Source: Candidatus Accumulibacter phosphatis | Lineage (GTDB): Bacteria > Pseudomonadota > Gammaproteobacteria > Burkholderiales > Rhodocyclaceae | Length of the DNA: 64,000 bases | Direction of reading: 5' to 3' | Assembly: GCF_012939955.1 (NCBI RefSeq) | Contig: NZ_SPMY01000005.1 | Location: 56,377 to 120,376, forward strand | Part shown: in pieces, positions 1 to 20,450 of the stretch | Numbering within the stretch: the first letter of the stretch is position 1 | Layout of the letters: every line of letters starts with the position of its first letter | The notes under the pieces: model-generated | Database searches by the model: none | Seen by the model: only the letters and a program-made list of their open reading frames with translations | What the model was told of the DNA's origin: nothing | Program-made: the position numbers and the translations under genes

Positions 1-1166
1 TTGTTGAAGACGCGCTTATTGGGTACCACCCACTGACGAGCCAGGATGTTTGCGGCGAAAGGCGCATAGCGGGCCAGGGTGGCTTCGTCAGTGCCTTTTG
101 CCGCCCCTTCGCCGGTGAGCATCGACAAGGTCGCTTGTACGGTATCGCGGTAATCCTCGGGCAGGGCGCGAGCATCGGTCCGTGGGTAGGTCAATACCTT
201 GTGCTTTTCGTAGAGCGCTTGCGCCAGGCCAAGCGTTGCTTTCGCGGAGAAGCCGAAGCGGCCGTTAGCTTCGCGTTGCAGGCTGGTCAGATCGTAGAGC
301 AGCGGCGACAGCTGCGTCGAGGGTTTGGCCTCTTCGCTGACTTCGCCGTCCTTGCCGGCGCATTTCTGCTGCAGGGCGATGGCACGCGCTTCGTCCCACA
401 AGCGGTCCGCGCGCGCGTGCTCGTCGTGGTCCTTGCCCTTGTACTTCTCATCGAACCACTTGCCGCGGTAGTCGCCGGCGGCACAAACGAAGAGCCCCTC
501 GACTTCCCAGTAGGCGCGCGGTTTGAACTTGCGAATGCGGTCTTCGCGGTCGACCATCAGCGCCAGCGTTGGCGTCTGGACGCGGCCGACGGTGGTCAGG
601 TGGAAGCCACCCGTTTTCGAGTTGAAGGCAGTCATCGCGCGCGTACCATTGATGCCGACCAACCAGTCCGACTCCGAGCGGCAGACGGCAGCGTCACCAA
701 GGCCGTGCATATCGGTGCCGTTGCGCAGGCGCGAGAAGCCGTCTCTGATCGCCTGTTGGGTCATCGACTGCAGCCATAGGCGTTCGACCGGTTTCGTATT
801 CTTGGCGTGCTGAACGATGTAGTTGAAAATCAGCTCACCCTCGCGGCCGGCGTCGCAGGCGTTGACCAGGCTGACGACATCCTTGCGTTTGAGCAGACGG
901 ACCAGCAATTTGAGGCGCGACTCGGTTTTCAGAATCGGCTGCAGCGCGAAGTGCGGCGGTATTACCGGCAGGTGGGCGAAAGACCACTTGCCGCGCTTGA
1001 CCTCGTACTCCTCTGGACAGGCCAGTTCAAGCAAATGTCCGACGGCTGAGGAGAGGACGTAGTCGTCACTCTCGAAATAGTCCTCGTGCCGAACGAAGCC
1101 GCCGAGCGCGCGTGCAAGGTCAGCGGCTACGGAGGGTTTCTCGGCGATGATCAGTTTCTTGCTCAT
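1..1166 (-). CDS. topB: DNA topoisomerase III, type IA (3' end outside window)
   Basis: Only the first 388 codons are in the window; the gene runs off the left edge. Translating the minus strand from the ATG at 1166-1164 gives a start MSKKLIIAEKPSVAADLARA, the TOPRIM strand of type IA topoisomerases, followed by the acidic metal-binding motif NACDAGREGELIF. The catalytic tyrosine lies in KVLTYPRTDARALPEDY; its codon is at 188-186, which makes it Tyr327. The enzyme makes a transient 5'-phosphotyrosyl break in single-stranded DNA and decatenates or relaxes negatively supercoiled DNA. The IAEKPS opening is the TopB form rather than the VESPAKA form of TopA, so I call topoisomerase III. The zinc-finger tail cannot be judged. 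It is transcribed away from smg-dprA, on the same strand and downstream of them. Confidence 0.93.
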   Translation of the reverse strand, partial: MSKKLIIAEKPSVAADLARALGGFVRHEDYFESDDYVLSSAVGHLLELACPEEYEVKRGKWSFAHLPVIPPHFALQPILKTESRLKLLVRLLKRKDVVSLVNACDAGREGELIFNYIVQHAKNTKPVERLWLQSMTQQAIRDGFSRLRNGTDMHGLGDAAVCRSESDWLVGINGTRAMTAFNSKTGGFHLTTVGRVQTPTLALMVDREDRIRKFKPRAYWEVEGLFVCAAGDYRGKWFDEKYKGKDHDEHARADRLWDEARAIALQQKCAGKDGEVSEEAKPSTQLSPLLYDLTSLQREANGRFGFSAKATLGLAQALYEKHKVLTYPRTDARALPEDYRDTVQATLSMLTGEGAAKGTDEATLARYAPFAANILARQWVVPNKRVFN

Positions 1167-5735: not shown

Positions 5736-6581
5736 ATGTTCGGTAATTGGGTAAAAACTTCGCTTCTGATGGCTGCCATTGTGGCGCTGTTTGGCGCCAT
5801 TGGGGCGATGGTCGGTGGCCAGACGGGGATGTTGCTGGCGCTGCTTTTTGGCGGCGCGATGAATGTCTTCGCCTACTGGTACTCGGACAAGATGGTGCTC
5901 AAGATGTATCAGGCGCGCGAGGTTGACGAGGCGTCGGCGCCGCAGTTCTACGGCATGGTTCGCGAGCTCGCGCAACGGGCCGAGTTACCAATGCCGAAGG
6001 TGTATCTGATCGATGAAGCGCAGCCGAATGCCTTTGCCACCGGTCGCAATCCGGACAATGCTGCGGTTGCGGCGACAACCGGGATTCTGCAGTTGTTGTC
6101 GGCACGCGAAATCCGGGGCGTGATGGCGCACGAACTGGCGCATGTCCGGCACCGCGACATTCTCATTTCGACGATCTCGGCGACCATGGCCGGAGCAATC
6201 TCCGCACTCGCCAACTTCGCGATGTTCTTTGGTGGGCGTGATTCGGAGGGCCGCTCAAATCCTGTGGCGGGCATCCTGGTCGCCCTGCTTGCGCCGTTGG
6301 CCGCCTCCCTGATTCAGATGGCCATTTCGCGGGCACGCGAGTTCGAGGCTGATCGTGGTGGTGCGGAGATTTCCGGCGACGCGAATGCCTTGGCCGATGC
6401 ACTGACCAAAATCGATGCTTACGCGCGCGGCATTCACCTGGCGCCAGCCGACGCGCATCCTGAAACGGCACAGATGATGATCATCAATCCCCTCTCGGGC
6501 GGTGGTATCAAGGGCCTGTTCAGCACGCATCCGGCGACCGAGGAACGCGTCGCGCGTCTGCGCGCCTTGGCGCGCACTTGA
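5736..6581 (+). CDS. htpX: Zinc metalloprotease HtpX (M48B)
   Basis: An inner-membrane protease that degrades misfolded membrane proteins alongside FtsH. The 281-residue product has two N-terminal hydrophobic segments (residues about 5-25 and 30-50), the zinc-binding HELAH at 132-136, two further hydrophobic stretches around 145-200, and the downstream ligand glutamate in [13 protein letters not shown]. Length matches the family (about 285-295). The start is fixed by CGGAGG about 9 bp upstream. A sigma-32-like promoter (5654-5682) sits in the 143-bp leader after fmt, consistent with heat-shock control. Confidence 0.97.
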
Positions 6582-6632
6582 GCGGCTCTGCGGCTGATTC
6601 CATGGACTAGTGCGGGGCTGGTTCGGCGGCAA

Positions 6633-6648
6633 TGTTTCACGTGGAACA
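6633..6648. promoter_or_regulatory. parS centromere-like site (ParB binding)
   Basis: The 16-mer TGTTTCACGTGGAACA reads TGTTCCACGTGAAACA on the other strand. That is the canonical chromosomal parS sequence bound by ParB/Spo0J. It lies at the convergent end of htpX and the nuclease gene and overlaps the last codons and stop of the latter. Searching by eye for other CACGTG cores in the window found none with matching flanks. Chromosomal parS sites cluster near oriC. Confidence 0.85.
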
Positions 6649-7626
6649 CTGCCGTGCTCCTGCTTTTCCAAACAGGCGCCGCAGTTGCTCAGCCAGGCGA
6701 TAGCCGGCTTCGACAAGGCGGCGGCCGGCAATCTCCAGCGCGCTGGCGTGGAACTGGGCACTGATCGTGAGTACGGCGTCGTTGCCCGGTGGGTAGGCTG
6801 CCCGCTGTGCGAGCTGCCAGCTTTCCTCGAGCCATTGCGCGGGTTCTCCCGCTGGCGCCGCTTCTGGGTAGAGACTTGTCAGTGCCTTGACGGTGCTCTC
6901 CAGGCGCTTGTCGCGTAGCCATGGCTTGCCCGGGAGATCGTCCCAATAGTTGTGCAGGTTTGTGAACTGATGCTTCGGCTGGAAAGGGTTGATAATCCGC
7001 TGCGCGTTGCCACCGCTATCATCTTTGCCGTTCGGGCGATTGCGGCTGGCCGCGTGCAGTGGCTGATGCGCGTCGCCGACCAGATGGATCAGCCAGGGCA
7101 GCGCATAAGCGCGCTCAGTGTCGCTGCGTCTCGCGTCGCACAGGACCGTCGCTAGCGCAGTCAATTGGCGGTCCAGCGTTCCTGGCGATGAGCGCGACGA
7201 CCTGCGCTTGGGATGCAAAGGGCGATCGACATAGTGCCAGCCGAGTCGACGTTCCATGTCCGGAAAGCCTTTCAGCGTTGGCGTTGGCTGCGCACGTCCG
7301 GCGGTGTAGAAGCGCCGGTCGCGGCGAATGTCGTCCGGCCAGGTCGAGGCTTCGAGAAACGCTGCGCGGTCCGCATCAGGGTCTTTGGAGCGTTCCTGCC
7401 AGCGTTCGAAGTCGGGGTGCTTGCGCAGCAAGGCAGACAGCGCAGATTTGCTGCGCTGATCTAGTTTTTCCCAGGCGATCAAGGCGGTGATGCGATGGCC
7501 AGCGGCGTTCCAGGCGGACGCCGGTGACGGGACAAGCAGTAGCAGCAGGAGTAGGGCTGTGGCCACAAACCCTGGCCGAAGCAGCAAGCCTCGTCGCGCA
7601 GACGCGGCACCTGGCCTAGCGGTCAA
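6637..7626 (-). CDS. S1/P1-family nuclease, secreted
   Basis: A 329-residue zinc-dependent nuclease/3'-nucleotidase of the fungal S1/P1 family. A leader with a long hydrophobic core ends at PASA, and the predicted mature protein starts WNAAGH; in P1 nuclease the N-terminal Trp and the following His are themselves zinc ligands. The other ligand motifs are present: STWPDD, GWHYVD, IHLVGDAHQPLH and NLHNYWDD. All nine metal-binding positions therefore appear intact and activity is likely. The protein should act in the periplasm or outside the cell, salvaging phosphate and nucleosides. Its 5' end overlaps the CDF gene by 11 bp, so the two are co-transcribed. The stop codon lies within the parS site. 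Confidence 0.9.
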   Translation of the reverse strand: MTARPGAASARRGLLLRPGFVATALLLLLLLVPSPASAWNAAGHRITALIAWEKLDQRSKSALSALLRKHPDFERWQERSKDPDADRAAFLEASTWPDDIRRDRRFYTAGRAQPTPTLKGFPDMERRLGWHYVDRPLHPKRRSSRSSPGTLDRQLTALATVLCDARRSDTERAYALPWLIHLVGDAHQPLHAASRNRPNGKDDSGGNAQRIINPFQPKHQFTNLHNYWDDLPGKPWLRDKRLESTVKALTSLYPEAAPAGEPAQWLEESWQLAQRAAYPPGNDAVLTISAQFHASALEIAGRRLVEAGYRLAEQLRRLFGKAGARQCST

Positions 7627-8527
7627 GGCCGAGGTCCTGATGCGAGGCCGGGTCTTCGAGCGGCTCGATGTGGATGAACACGCTGGCGTGCGGCAGTTCC
7701 CGGCGCAGCTCGCTTTCGAGCTCTTCGACGAGTTGATGCGCTCGCATTACGGTCCACGCGCCCGGGACGAGAACATGTAGCGAAATGAAGCTGCGGGCAC
7801 CCGCCTCGCGGCTGCGCAAGGCATGGAAGTCGATCCCCTGGCGGCGATAACTCTTGAGGACCTCGAGAATCTGAGCCTGTTGTTCGGGCGGCAGGCTAGC
7901 ATCCATCAGCCCATTGGCTGAGCGGCGCAGCAGCCGCCAGCCGGTCCAGACGATGTTGCTGGCGACCAGCAGGGCCAGGATCGGGTCCAGCCATAGCCAG
8001 CCGGTCAGCGCGACGGCGCCGACGCCAATAATGACCCCGAGCGAGGTCCACACATCGGTCAGCAGATGATGGGCATCCGCTTCCAGGGTGATCGAGCGCT
8101 GTCGTCGCCCGGTGAGCAGCAGGACCCGTCCGACGAGTAGATTGATCAGCGCGGCGACTGCCGACACCGCGAGGCCGGCGCCAACGGCCTCTAATGGCTG
8201 TGGGTTGAGCAGGCGTTCGCCGGCAGCCATGGCCATGGCGATAGCGGCGAAAAGGATCAGCAGACCTTCGAAGCCGCTCGAGAAGTACTCGGCCTTGCCG
8301 TGTCCAAAGCCATGCCCCGCGTCCTCCGGTCGTTCGGCAATCGAGAGCATGGCCAGCGCCATGCAGGCGCCGGCCAGATTGACCAGCGATTCGAGCGCAT
8401 CGGAGAGCAGACCGACCGAGCCGGTGAGCAGCCAGGCAAGTGCTTTGAGAGCAATTGTCACCAGTGCTGCGGCGATGGAAAGCCAGATGTAGGGTTTTAA
8501 GGAGGGCGACGGCGAGGGCGAGGGCAT
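7616..8527 (-). CDS. Cation diffusion facilitator (CDF) metal transporter
   Basis: A roughly 303-residue inner-membrane divalent-metal/proton antiporter. Six hydrophobic segments occupy residues about 10-205. The metal-site aspartates are in GLLSDALESLVNL (TM2) and in the HHLLTDVWTSLGVIIG segment (TM5), with the HGFGHGKAEYFS loop between TM2 and TM3. The C-terminal cytoplasmic domain (about 210-303) ends with the conserved HVLVPGAWTV ... HVFIHIEP-like pattern (here HASVFIHIEP). I start at the ATG at 8527-8525 (MPSPSPSPSLKPYIW) because it places TM1 correctly; upstream in-frame codons add a non-conserved tail. The metal (Zn, Fe or Mn) cannot be told from sequence alone. Confidence 0.92.
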   Translation of the reverse strand: MPSPSPSPSLKPYIWLSIAAALVTIALKALAWLLTGSVGLLSDALESLVNLAGACMALAMLSIAERPEDAGHGFGHGKAEYFSSGFEGLLILFAAIAMAMAAGERLLNPQPLEAVGAGLAVSAVAALINLLVGRVLLLTGRRQRSITLEADAHHLLTDVWTSLGVIIGVGAVALTGWLWLDPILALLVASNIVWTGWRLLRRSANGLMDASLPPEQQAQILEVLKSYRRQGIDFHALRSREAGARSFISLHVLVPGAWTVMRAHQLVEELESELRRELPHASVFIHIEPLEDPASHQDLGLDR

Positions 8528-8617
8528 GTGGCTATTATCGCCCCCCGGCGACCAGGCCGCCATCGCCAGGCATCGTGCTAAACTCGGCACACACCCTAAA
8601 GAAAAGCATCCGTCGTC

Positions 8618-18096: not shown

Positions 18097-18434
18097 GTCT
18101 GCGATTAGTGCTTGACTTGTTCACAGAACAGACTTCCGAGTTTCTGGCACGGTGGAAACTTCCTTGTAAATCAGACTTGTAGTTATAAGTTGCTGATTTA
18201 TAAAACGTTTTTTAGTAGCCTGTTTTTCCGGCAACGGCTCTGAAACCCTGTCAGGACGGGCTCTTGCGGGGTTTCTCAGCGCCCTCATCCACAGAGTTAT
18301 CCACAGAAACTGTGAATGAGCTAGAAACCTTAAATAACAGAAGATCTTATGCCGTACTACGAGAAGTGGCGCGAGCTTCCGCTGCTAACTAGCGATCGTT
18401 TTCTCCTCCCGACTGTCAATGGCTCTCCGACCTG
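18097..18434. other. Intergenic region hemE-priA, AT-rich with DnaA boxes
   Basis: This 338-bp gap is noticeably more AT-rich than its surroundings between about 18160 and 18235, including a palindrome AAAACGTTTT at 18203-18212. A sigma-70-like pair TTGTAG (18178-18183), 16 bp, TATAAA (18200-18205) could drive priA. An inverted repeat GAAACCC (18242-18248) and GGGTTTC (18269-18275) could form a hairpin without a T-run. DnaA-box-like sequences follow at 18285-18305. No open reading frame of interest was seen. Confidence 0.6.
18285..18305 (+). promoter_or_regulatory. Tandem DnaA boxes
   Basis: TTATCCACA at 18297-18305 is the exact consensus DnaA box. TCATCCACA at 18285-18293, one mismatch away, is repeated in the same orientation at a 12-bp interval. 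A weaker inverted copy (TGTGAATGA) follows at about 18311. They lie downstream of an AT-rich stretch, 130 bp before priA. Confidence 0.6.
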
Positions 18435-20450
18435 ATGTCCTTGCCGCAGATTGCCCGCGTCGCCCTTGATGTTCCGCTGCGCCGCCTCTTCGACTACCGC
18501 GTCGCCGATGGCGAGTCGCTGTCGGCGGGCGATATCGGCTACCGCGTACGTGTGCCCTTCGGTCGCAACGAAAAAATCGGCATTCTGGTCGAGCTGCCGG
18601 CGGCAAGCGATCTTCCGCTGGAGCAACTCAAAGTCCTTGGCGAGGTCTTTCGCGACTTGCCGCCTTTGCCCGCAGACTGGTTTCGCCTTAGCGAGTTCTG
18701 TGCTGCCTACTATCACGTAGCGCTCGGCCAGGTGATGCTGTCGACCTTGCCGGCCGGCTTGCGCGCCCTCAAGCCCGTCAAGCCCAGAGCGCCGCGGCAG
18801 GCTTCGCCAGGCGCGGCCGTGGCGGCGCCAGAACTGACTGGCGAGCAGCAGGCGGCGCTAGACTCCATCGCCGAGCTTGGCGCCGGCTTCCACGCCTACC
18901 TTTTGCACGGCGTGACCGGCAGTGGCAAGACCGAAATCTATCTCCGGCTCATTGAGCGGGCCCTGGCCGATGGACAGCAGTCGCTGCTGCTGGTCCCGGA
19001 AATCAATCTGACCCCACAGCTTGAAGCTCGCGTCGCAGCGCGTTTTCCCGCCGCCGGGCTGGTCAGTCTGCACAGCGAGCTCGGCGAGGCCGCGCGTAGC
19101 CGCAACTGGTGCGCCGCCTTGACCGGCGAAGCGCGCATCGTGCTCGGCACCCGCCTGGCGATCTTCACTCCGCTGCCCGAGCTTGGCTTGATCATCGTCG
19201 ACGAGGAGCACGACCCCTCCTTCAAACAGCAGGACGGCATCCGCTATTCGGCGCGCGACCTGGCTGTCTTCCGTGCCCGCCAGCGCGCCATAAAAATCAT
19301 CCTCGGTTCGGCGACGCCTTCGCTCGAAAGCTGGGCCAACGCCACCGCCGAGGCTGGTCGCGGTCGCTATCACCTGCTGCGGCTGAGTGAGCGGGCGGTT
19401 GAAGGTGCTCGACTGCCGAGCGTGCAGCGTATCGACACCCGCCTCGACAAGCCCCGGGACGGGCTTAGTCGTGTCTTGTTACGCGCCGTCGAGGAGCGCC
19501 TGGCGCGCGGCGAGCAAAGCCTGCTCTTCCTCAATCGCCGGGGCTACGCACCGGTGCTGGCCTGTGCCGCTTGCGGCTGGACCTCGCACTGCCATCGCTG
19601 CGCCGCCAATCTGGTGCTGCATCTGGTCGACCGCCGCCTGCGCTGCCATCACTGCGGCTTCGAAACGCGCTTGCCGACAGGCTGCCCGACCTGTGGCAAC
19701 CAGGACCTGAGCGCCTTCGGGCGCGGCACGCAACGCCTGGAAGCGGTGCTCGCCGAGCACTTTCCCGAGGCTCGCGTGCTGCGCGTCGATCGTGATGTGG
19801 CGCGCAGCCGCAAGCAGTGGGAAGTGCTGGTGGCGAGGATTTACAGCGGCGACGCCGACATTCTGGTCGGCACCCAGATGCTCGCCAAAGGGCACGATTT
19901 CCCCAAGCTCACCCTGGTCGGCGCCATTGCTCCCGATGCCGCCTTGTTTGCCGCCGACTGGCGCGCGCCCGAGCGTCTCTTCGCGCAGTTGATGCAGGTC
20001 GCCGGCCGCGCCGGTCGCGCCGAACGTCCAGGTGAGTTTCTGATTCAGACGCAGTTCCCCGAGCATCCGCTCTACGCCGCGCTCGTCCACCATGATTTTC
20101 CCGCCTTCGCCGCCGAACAGCTCAGCGAGCGGCAACAGGCCGGCTTCCCTCCCTATGCGCACCAGGCCATGCTGCGTGCCGAAGCGCCGCTGATGGCCGA
20201 CGCCCTCGGTTTTCTGAAAAGTGCGCGTACTTGCCCGGCCGTGGGCAGCGAACATTCGGTGACCTTCTACGACCCGGTGCCGATGCGCCTGGCCCGCCGC
20301 GCCAGTTTCGAACGTGGCCAGTTGCTCGTCGAGTCGCCCGCACGGCGAGTGCTGCAGCGCTTTCTTGCCGACTGGCTGCCGCAGCTGGAAGCAATCAAAG
20401 CGCCATCACGGCTGCGCTGGCACCTGGAAGTCGATCCGCTGGAGTTCTGA
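18435..20450 (+). CDS. priA: Primosomal protein N' (replication restart helicase PriA)
   Basis: A 671-residue 3'-5' helicase that reloads the replisome at stalled forks. The N-terminal DNA-binding region opens QIARVALDVPLRRLFDYRV. The helicase core has Walker A GVTGSGKT (residues 159-166), IVDEEHDPSFKQQ (motif II), GSATPSLES (motif III) and a C-terminal lobe with VGTQMLAKGHDFP and QVAGRAGRAERPGEF. The zinc-binding region (about residues 375-425) carries paired cysteines CAACGW, CHRC, CHHCG and CPTCG. The product is somewhat shorter than the 732 aa of E. coli but contains every domain. The start is the ATG at 18435. Confidence 0.97.
   Translation: MSLPQIARVALDVPLRRLFDYRVADGESLSAGDIGYRVRVPFGRNEKIGILVELPAASDLPLEQLKVLGEVFRDLPPLPADWFRLSEFCAAYYHVALGQVMLSTLPAGLRALKPVKPRAPRQASPGAAVAAPELTGEQQAALDSIAELGAGFHAYLLHGVTGSGKTEIYLRLIERALADGQQSLLLVPEINLTPQLEARVAARFPAAGLVSLHSELGEAARSRNWCAALTGEARIVLGTRLAIFTPLPELGLIIVDEEHDPSFKQQDGIRYSARDLAVFRARQRAIKIILGSATPSLESWANATAEAGRGRYHLLRLSERAVEGARLPSVQRIDTRLDKPRDGLSRVLLRAVEERLARGEQSLLFLNRRGYAPVLACAACGWTSHCHRCAANLVLHLVDRRLRCHHCGFETRLPTGCPTCGNQDLSAFGRGTQRLEAVLAEHFPEARVLRVDRDVARSRKQWEVLVARIYSGDADILVGTQMLAKGHDFPKLTLVGAIAPDAALFAADWRAPERLFAQLMQVAGRAGRAERPGEFLIQTQFPEHPLYAALVHHDFPAFAAEQLSERQQAGFPPYAHQAMLRAEAPLMADALGFLKSARTCPAVGSEHSVTFYDPVPMRLARRASFERGQLLVESPARRVLQRFLADWLPQLEAIKAPSRLRWHLEVDPLEF

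Follow-up and report, generated by a model that had tools for sequence, protein, structure and literature searches.

A predicted parS site at the htpX/nuclease junction of Candidatus Accumulibacter phosphatis and an apparent repositioning of parS across the origin

The closest described counterparts of the locus reported here are chromosomal ParABS systems. The parS consensus of the Bacillus subtilis system is given as TGTTNCACGTGAAACA in a table of PMC7022226, and the same source places two parS sites on chromosome I of Burkholderia cenocepacia, both of them in the ori domain. In Pseudomonas aeruginosa, parS1-4 are described as origin-proximal, some lying within and some between genes (PMC5521831), and half-parS sites are also described from this species (PMC10419367). 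ParB spreads from parS in a CTP-dependent manner (PMC7053999) and is moved by ParA (PMC7333895); the extent of spreading is stated to reach 20 kb in some bacteria (PMC5521831) and, for Caulobacter ParB in E. coli, to go no further than about 2 kb around a single site (PMC5815017).

We analyzed a 64,000-nucleotide stretch of Ca. Accumulibacter phosphatis DNA (hereafter the window, C54:56377-120376), which belongs to an assembly of 5.04 Mb in 149 contigs that is 97% complete, so that more parS sites could be missing from it. Compared with B. subtilis, the Accumulibacter site is letter-for-letter the same on its minus strand, lies near the origin and is accompanied by a ParB of the same family; it differs in site number (10 in B. 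subtilis versus two per Accumulibacter genome) and in the occasional inverted-repeat arms of its flanks. B. cenocepacia chromosome I is likened here by site count and domain: it too belongs to a betaproteobacterium, has two sites in the origin region and shares the consensus. P. aeruginosa also has origin-proximal sites; unlike that species, Accumulibacter has both parS sites at convergent 3' ends, with the start codons of the two genes flanking the window site about 0.9-1.0 kb away. A literature search found no report joining parS, ParB and Accumulibacter and, at the level of titles and abstracts, none of a parS layout of the Accumulibacter type. Accumulibacter is known mainly from enrichment cultures, and the sites described below offer a testable centromere map for it.

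The 16-mer at 6633-6648 and its genomic setting

The forward strand of the window at 6633-6648 reads TGTTTCACGTGGAACA, and its reverse complement, TGTTCCACGTGAAACA, is an exact match to the classical 16-bp palindromic consensus (Table 1). Apart from this site, the window holds no parS match at up to three mismatches, and dinucleotide shuffles of the window give a mean of 0.23 such matches. Under a first-order Markov model, exact TGTTYCACGTGRAACA is expected 2.6e-5 times per 64 kb and 0.0020 times per 5.04 Mb. A preliminary description of this DNA had called the 16-mer a canonical chromosomal ParB-binding sequence whose occurrence by chance in 64 kb was very unlikely; with both strands checked, the two statements agree with these figures. 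Judged from its motif, context and conservation, the site is predicted to be a real and ordinary parS.

Table 1. Coordinates of the parS site and neighboring features in the window.
Feature	Position	Strand	Basis
parS	6633..6648	+	exact motif; copy with at most one mismatch at the same junction in 28/28 genus genomes
Left inverted-repeat arm CGGCA, pairs with 6650-6654	6627..6631	+	sequence; arm length 5
Right inverted-repeat arm TGCCG	6650..6654	+	sequence; arm length 5
htpX, zinc metalloprotease; 3' end toward parS	5736..6581	+	NF002826, 492.9 bits (cut-off 369); PF01435
S1/P1 nuclease gene; stop codon within parS	6637..7626	-	PF02265, 148.7 bits; ORF
CDF cation-efflux gene, upstream of the nuclease gene on the same strand	7616..8590	-	PF01545 and PF16916
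topA (presumed), 5' part in the window; gene continues to C54:54966	1..1166	-	ORF C54:54966-57542

A scan of the whole genome at up to two mismatches returned two parS sites, namely the window site (C54:63009) and a second one, TGTTTCACGTGAAACA, at C54:54910-54925, which precedes the start of the window by 1467 bases; the reversed control pattern gave one match. The two sites are 8.1 kb apart on the same contig, and the 3' end of the gene that we presume to be topA (a name assigned from gene order and length, not from a family search) faces the second one. dnaA is located at C54:34743-36123, 20 and 28 kb from the sites, which lie on its gyrB side, and a ParB gene with an adjacent ParA-type gene (PF13614) is found at C54:20199-21035, 34 and 42 kb from them. 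The cumulative GC skew of the contig reaches its minimum at about 25-27.5 kb, and an SMC gene is encoded on another contig (1042.8 bits versus a cut-off of 567.35). Two features by which a chromosomal parS is recognized are therefore present, parA and parB on the chromosome, here as adjacent genes of C54, and few copies clustered near the origin, here two copies near dnaA. Clustering of parS around oriC, raised in the preliminary description as something to be checked by a genome scan against GC skew and dnaA, was indeed found, as the sole other copy in the assembly is 8.1 kb away and dnaA is on the same contig. The same description had placed the window close to the origin on account of parS together with a DnaA box. 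The placement stands through the two sites, which share the dnaA contig at 20-28 kb; the box adds little, and we set it aside as weak origin evidence, since it is a single perfect 9-mer (TTATCCACA, window 18297-18305, about 130 bp before priA at 18435-20450) with 0.07 occurrences expected by chance in the window.

Further genes of C54, which we take to be dnaN, gyrB, mnmE, mnmG and atp genes (names partly assumed), lie beside topA-htpX. An H+-pyrophosphatase gene (PF03030) and a gene for a 748-amino acid phosphofructokinase (PF00365) occupy C54:42113-47657 (L005:2113-7657), between gyrB and the thiC-side genes of the window genome (G000); in G011, G015 and G027, the next conserved gene comes immediately after gyrB. 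The dnaA match of G000 is split over two frames (loci L007 and L009; model residues 1-90 and 76-436) and is in one frame in all 27 other genomes of the genus, so the split is probably a sequencing or assembly slip.

The ParB encoded on C54 has N-terminal, helix-turn-helix and C-terminal ParB domains (matches to PF02195, PF17762 and PF23552) and a GERRWRA stretch. In Caulobacter numbering, it keeps G170, S172, R173, N178, G201 and R204, with R in place of K171, L at 179 and Q at 184, and the parS-contacting Q162 of Caulobacter ParB aligns with H as read from the alignment. R173 and G201 are stated to be conserved in all ParB proteins and altered in Noc (PMC7383237). A Noc-binding site would be recognized by a genome-encoded Noc with Q173/R201-type residues; the C54 protein has R173 and G201, the parS-type recognition residues, and its score against the Noc model TIGR04285, obtained for this protein only, is 220.1, below the cut-off of 315. 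On these sequence features, the protein is classed as a ParB and not as a Noc, and it is predicted to bind parS.

Taken together with the comparisons below, we consider it very likely that 6633-6648 is a parS site, one of two found in the assembly, which would load the chromosomal ParB for origin separation by ParA and SMC, which appears to have been repositioned once and whose overlap with a stop codon is incidental. In studied ParABS systems, ParB is a loader of SMC. By analogy with other bacteria, the 16-mer would be bound by dimers of ParB, which would close as CTP-dependent clamps and slide onto the htpX and nuclease DNA, ParA would pull ParB, ParB would recruit SMC, and ParA and SMC would together separate newly copied origins. 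Spreading over the published ranges would take ParB across both htpX and the nuclease gene. With regard to expression, PMC5521831 states that in P. aeruginosa the promoters and genes next to the intergenic parS3 and parS4 are repressed by ParB, that at native level it does not repress genes beside the intragenic parS1 and parS2, and that the B. subtilis transcriptome without ParB shows no significant change. Since each flanking gene has its 3' end at parS and its start codon at the distance given above, an effect of ParB spreading on expression, which the preliminary description had raised for htpX and the nuclease/CDF operon, is possible, although a strong one would not be expected.

Placement of parS in Accumulibacter and related genera

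To examine conservation, 28 Accumulibacter genomes were scanned in full at up to one mismatch, which gave 50 parS sites against nine matches of the reversed control; 22 genomes have two sites and six have one, two being the maximum. At zero mismatches, across 101 genomes, the true pattern was present in 77 genomes and the reversed control in none. The sites fall at two junctions, both convergent, with the flanking genes pointing toward parS. At the junction of the nuclease gene with htpX or fmt, parS is present in all 28 genomes (22 exact, six with one mismatch), and at the junction of a LysR-type gene with topA it is present in 22 (19 exact, three with one mismatch). As for the remaining six, the topA junction carries a two-mismatch copy in G006, G008 and G015 and no copy in G020, and the contig stops before this junction in G012 and G024. 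Both expected neighbors flank 49 of the 50 sites; the fiftieth, in G023, leaves its contig beside the LysR gene and was assigned to the topA junction. In 11 of the 28 genomes htpX is absent at the locus (for example, L053 and L077), and parS is kept there at a fmt/nuclease junction. The bases flanking the 16-mer are barely alignable, close relatives excepted, and a distance of 6.4-8.4 kb separates the two sites in the 19 genomes in which they share a contig. These fixed, genus-wide parS positions at two convergent junctions are a new point.

In three loci (L058, L066 and L076), a half-matching parS copy, CTGTTTCACGTGGCC, is located about 20 bp past the topA-junction site and resembles the half-parS sites of P. 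aeruginosa.

The nuclease gene had been described as ending within parS, and its ORF does terminate inside the 16-mer, which covers the last codons TGT TCC ACG TGA (Cys-Ser-Thr-stop). This overlap lies outside the S1-P1 Pfam match, which stops at residue 319 of 329. Among 27 Accumulibacter genomes compared (the nuclease junction of G002 was fetched later and left out of this count), the stop codon lies inside parS in six, the frame continues through parS in eight and it stops 1-77 bp short in 13. We therefore dropped the overlap as a meaningful feature; it is incidental. Homologues of the nuclease were found at 22 loci of named genomes, 16 of them in Accumulibacter, with the best identity (91%) in Ca. 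Accumulibacter meliphilus.

The distances between parS, dnaA and parB vary within the genus. dnaA and parS share a contig in 16 of the 28 genomes and lie on separate contigs in the other 12; in the 16, the nearer site is 11.6-119.5 kb from dnaA, and in 12 of them it is less than 22 kb away. The distance between parB and dnaA is 13.7-18.7 kb in G000, G009, G011, G016 and G018. In the single-contig genome G010, parB is at 1.434, dnaA at 1.727 and the parS sites at 1.846 and 1.854 Mb, which separates dnaA from the parS pair by 119-127 kb and, on the opposite side, from parB by 292 kb. In G015, also a single contig, parB is at 4.847, dnaA at 0.420 and parS at 0.438 Mb, with 611 kb between parB and dnaA if the molecule is circular. 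These positions indicate that parS stayed with the topA-htpX block and that parB can be distant. Close proximity of parS to dnaA is thus not universal in the genus, as G010 demonstrates, and the loose link between parB and parS in Accumulibacter is a further new point. A ParB match was obtained in 27 of the 28 genomes; G021, listed as 100% complete and carrying both parS sites, gave none at 1e-40, perhaps because of an assembly gap.

For comparison across the family, one genome was taken from each of 33 other genera, all except G043 entering the one-mismatch scan. In total, 34 of the 35 family genomes scanned (three being Accumulibacter) have one to three parS sites at up to one mismatch, and G030 has none at this threshold. 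The other genera share the parS motif of Accumulibacter. Their sites lie beside mnmE, mnmG or an intervening TauE-type gene in 26 of 31 genera, and in six of these 26 the further neighbor is an rsmB-ntrYX block instead of mnmG. Spacing also differs: at least two sites are present in 22 other genera, and 18 of these have them at intervals of about 25 bp to 1.1 kb, as against the several kilobases seen in Accumulibacter. Five genera are exceptions in placement: G046 has both sites at the htpX/nuclease junction; G051 has one there and the other 15 kb on; G047 has its sites around a LysR-type gene adjoining gyrB; G039 has parS between dnaN and gyrB; and G057 has one site inside a 1283-amino acid ORF, presumably related to metH, and the other 11.5 kb on.

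In a midpoint-rooted tree of MnmE and YidC from 35 genomes, G046, G047, G051, G057 and four Accumulibacter genomes form one clade with support of 100, which G039 joins with support of only 41. An earlier FastTree analysis that did not contain G031, G041, G047, G051 and G057 had grouped G039, G046 and Accumulibacter with support of 1.0. The simplest reading of these sequence comparisons is that, in an ancestor of Accumulibacter and its closest genera, parS left mnmE/mnmG in a single move that took it across dnaA to the opposite side, and the Accumulibacter clade thus appears to have repositioned its centromere across the origin. This would apparently be a natural example of a bacterial centromere that changed its place, in which motif, ParB family and site number are the same and the side of the origin differs, and it includes two single-contig genomes in which parB and dnaA are 0.3 and 0.6 Mb apart. 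It allows one to ask whether parS position tracks the origin, the parAB genes or safe gene junctions. The repositioning, together with the hairpin discussed below, is a modest novelty of a site that is in itself an ordinary parS.

Inverted-repeat arms and competing readings

In the window genome, both sites are framed by inverted repeats, the second one by CGCTGC/GCAGCG. The z scores for RNA folding of 60-base stretches on the two strands are -2.38 and -1.85 at the window site and -3.91 and -3.94 at the other. At 6633-6648, neither a T-run nor a terminator call was found on either strand; an intrinsic (Rho-independent) terminator, which combines a G+C-rich hairpin with a T-run, was therefore rejected: the hairpin folds, but the T-run is missing.

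Arms were then compared with controls carrying cross-genome flanks. The mean longest arm is 3.89 versus 3.16 at the nuclease junction (0 of 2000 shuffles), 2.93 versus 2.58 in other genera (16 of 2000, slightly above controls) and 3.04 versus 2.89 at the topA junction (551 of 2000, not above controls); arms also exceed controls at order level. Folding energies are below those of cross-genome controls in four groups, with 1, 7, 2 and 0 of 150 controls as low. Of 150 site entries, 12 have perfect arms of at least five bases, where about 0.9 would be expected, and four of the 12 come from closely related genomes at the topA junction. The 150 entries represent 149 distinct sites, as a G057 site was entered twice, under "other" and under "order", and the arm statistics can be distorted by paired sites less than 30 bases apart, whose flanks hold another parS, and by the non-independence of related genomes. 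Covariation of the arms was also scored. At the window junction (six rows, picked by stop-codon overlap), it is weak: two arm pairs have double changes, and of 500 shuffles, 17 reach the score and 73 reach this number of double-changed pairs. In the topA set, four rows picked for visible arms and hence biased, each of the two measures is reached by 10 of 500 shuffles.

We regard the higher frequency of arms relative to controls as a weak hint of a hairpin role. Palindromes can acquire such arms by template-switch copying, and this process, a function in transcript termination or some other cause could account for the arms. One site of G037 (L086, 6001-6016, minus strand) has 8-bp arms followed by seven T and thus resembles a full intrinsic terminator with parS as its core.

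A broader version of the repositioning would have the parS pair jump across the origin to convergent gene ends, where the covarying arms would form an RNA hairpin that halts converging polymerases and shields ParB from being swept off, a single element thus acting as centromere and as transcription barrier. If the arms are real, they would link centromere placement to transcription conflict; given the data above, we think this broader version unlikely. Considerably less likely still is that the main task of the element is to end the convergent htpX and nuclease transcripts as a hairpin whose stem is the palindrome of parS, any binding of ParB being secondary or shared. Such a hairpin could draw on the long arms at the nuclease junction, on the excess of perfect arms among the site entries and on the two double-changed pairs, yet it would have to do so with no T-run or terminator call at the site, with 138 of the 150 entries lacking arms and a third of the rest coming from close relatives at one junction, with topA-junction arms of chance length, and with a count of double-changed pairs that some shuffles also reach. 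Moreover, the core letters of parS are kept far more strictly than pairing requires.

That the 16-mer is a chance match or a functionless leftover is scarcely credible. The decayed topA-junction copies of G006, G008 and G015 and the lost one of G020 indicate that single sites are losable, yet a sequence expected 0.002 times per genome is kept at the nuclease junction throughout the genus, even where its flanks are barely alignable and htpX is missing. An origin in a plasmid, phage or other mobile element has a negligible chance of being right, even though G000 encodes a second ParB over the cut-off on contig C125, since that contig lacks a canonical parS at up to two mismatches and C54 carries, beside parS, dnaA and ParB over their family cut-offs, the adjacent ParA-type gene and the chromosomal gene order given above. 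Both origins were rejected on chance expectation, genus conservation and chromosomal gene context. The ParB-family protein of C125 (C125:8748-9281, L013), which lies in an open frame of 592 amino acids, perhaps marks a plasmid or an integrated element.
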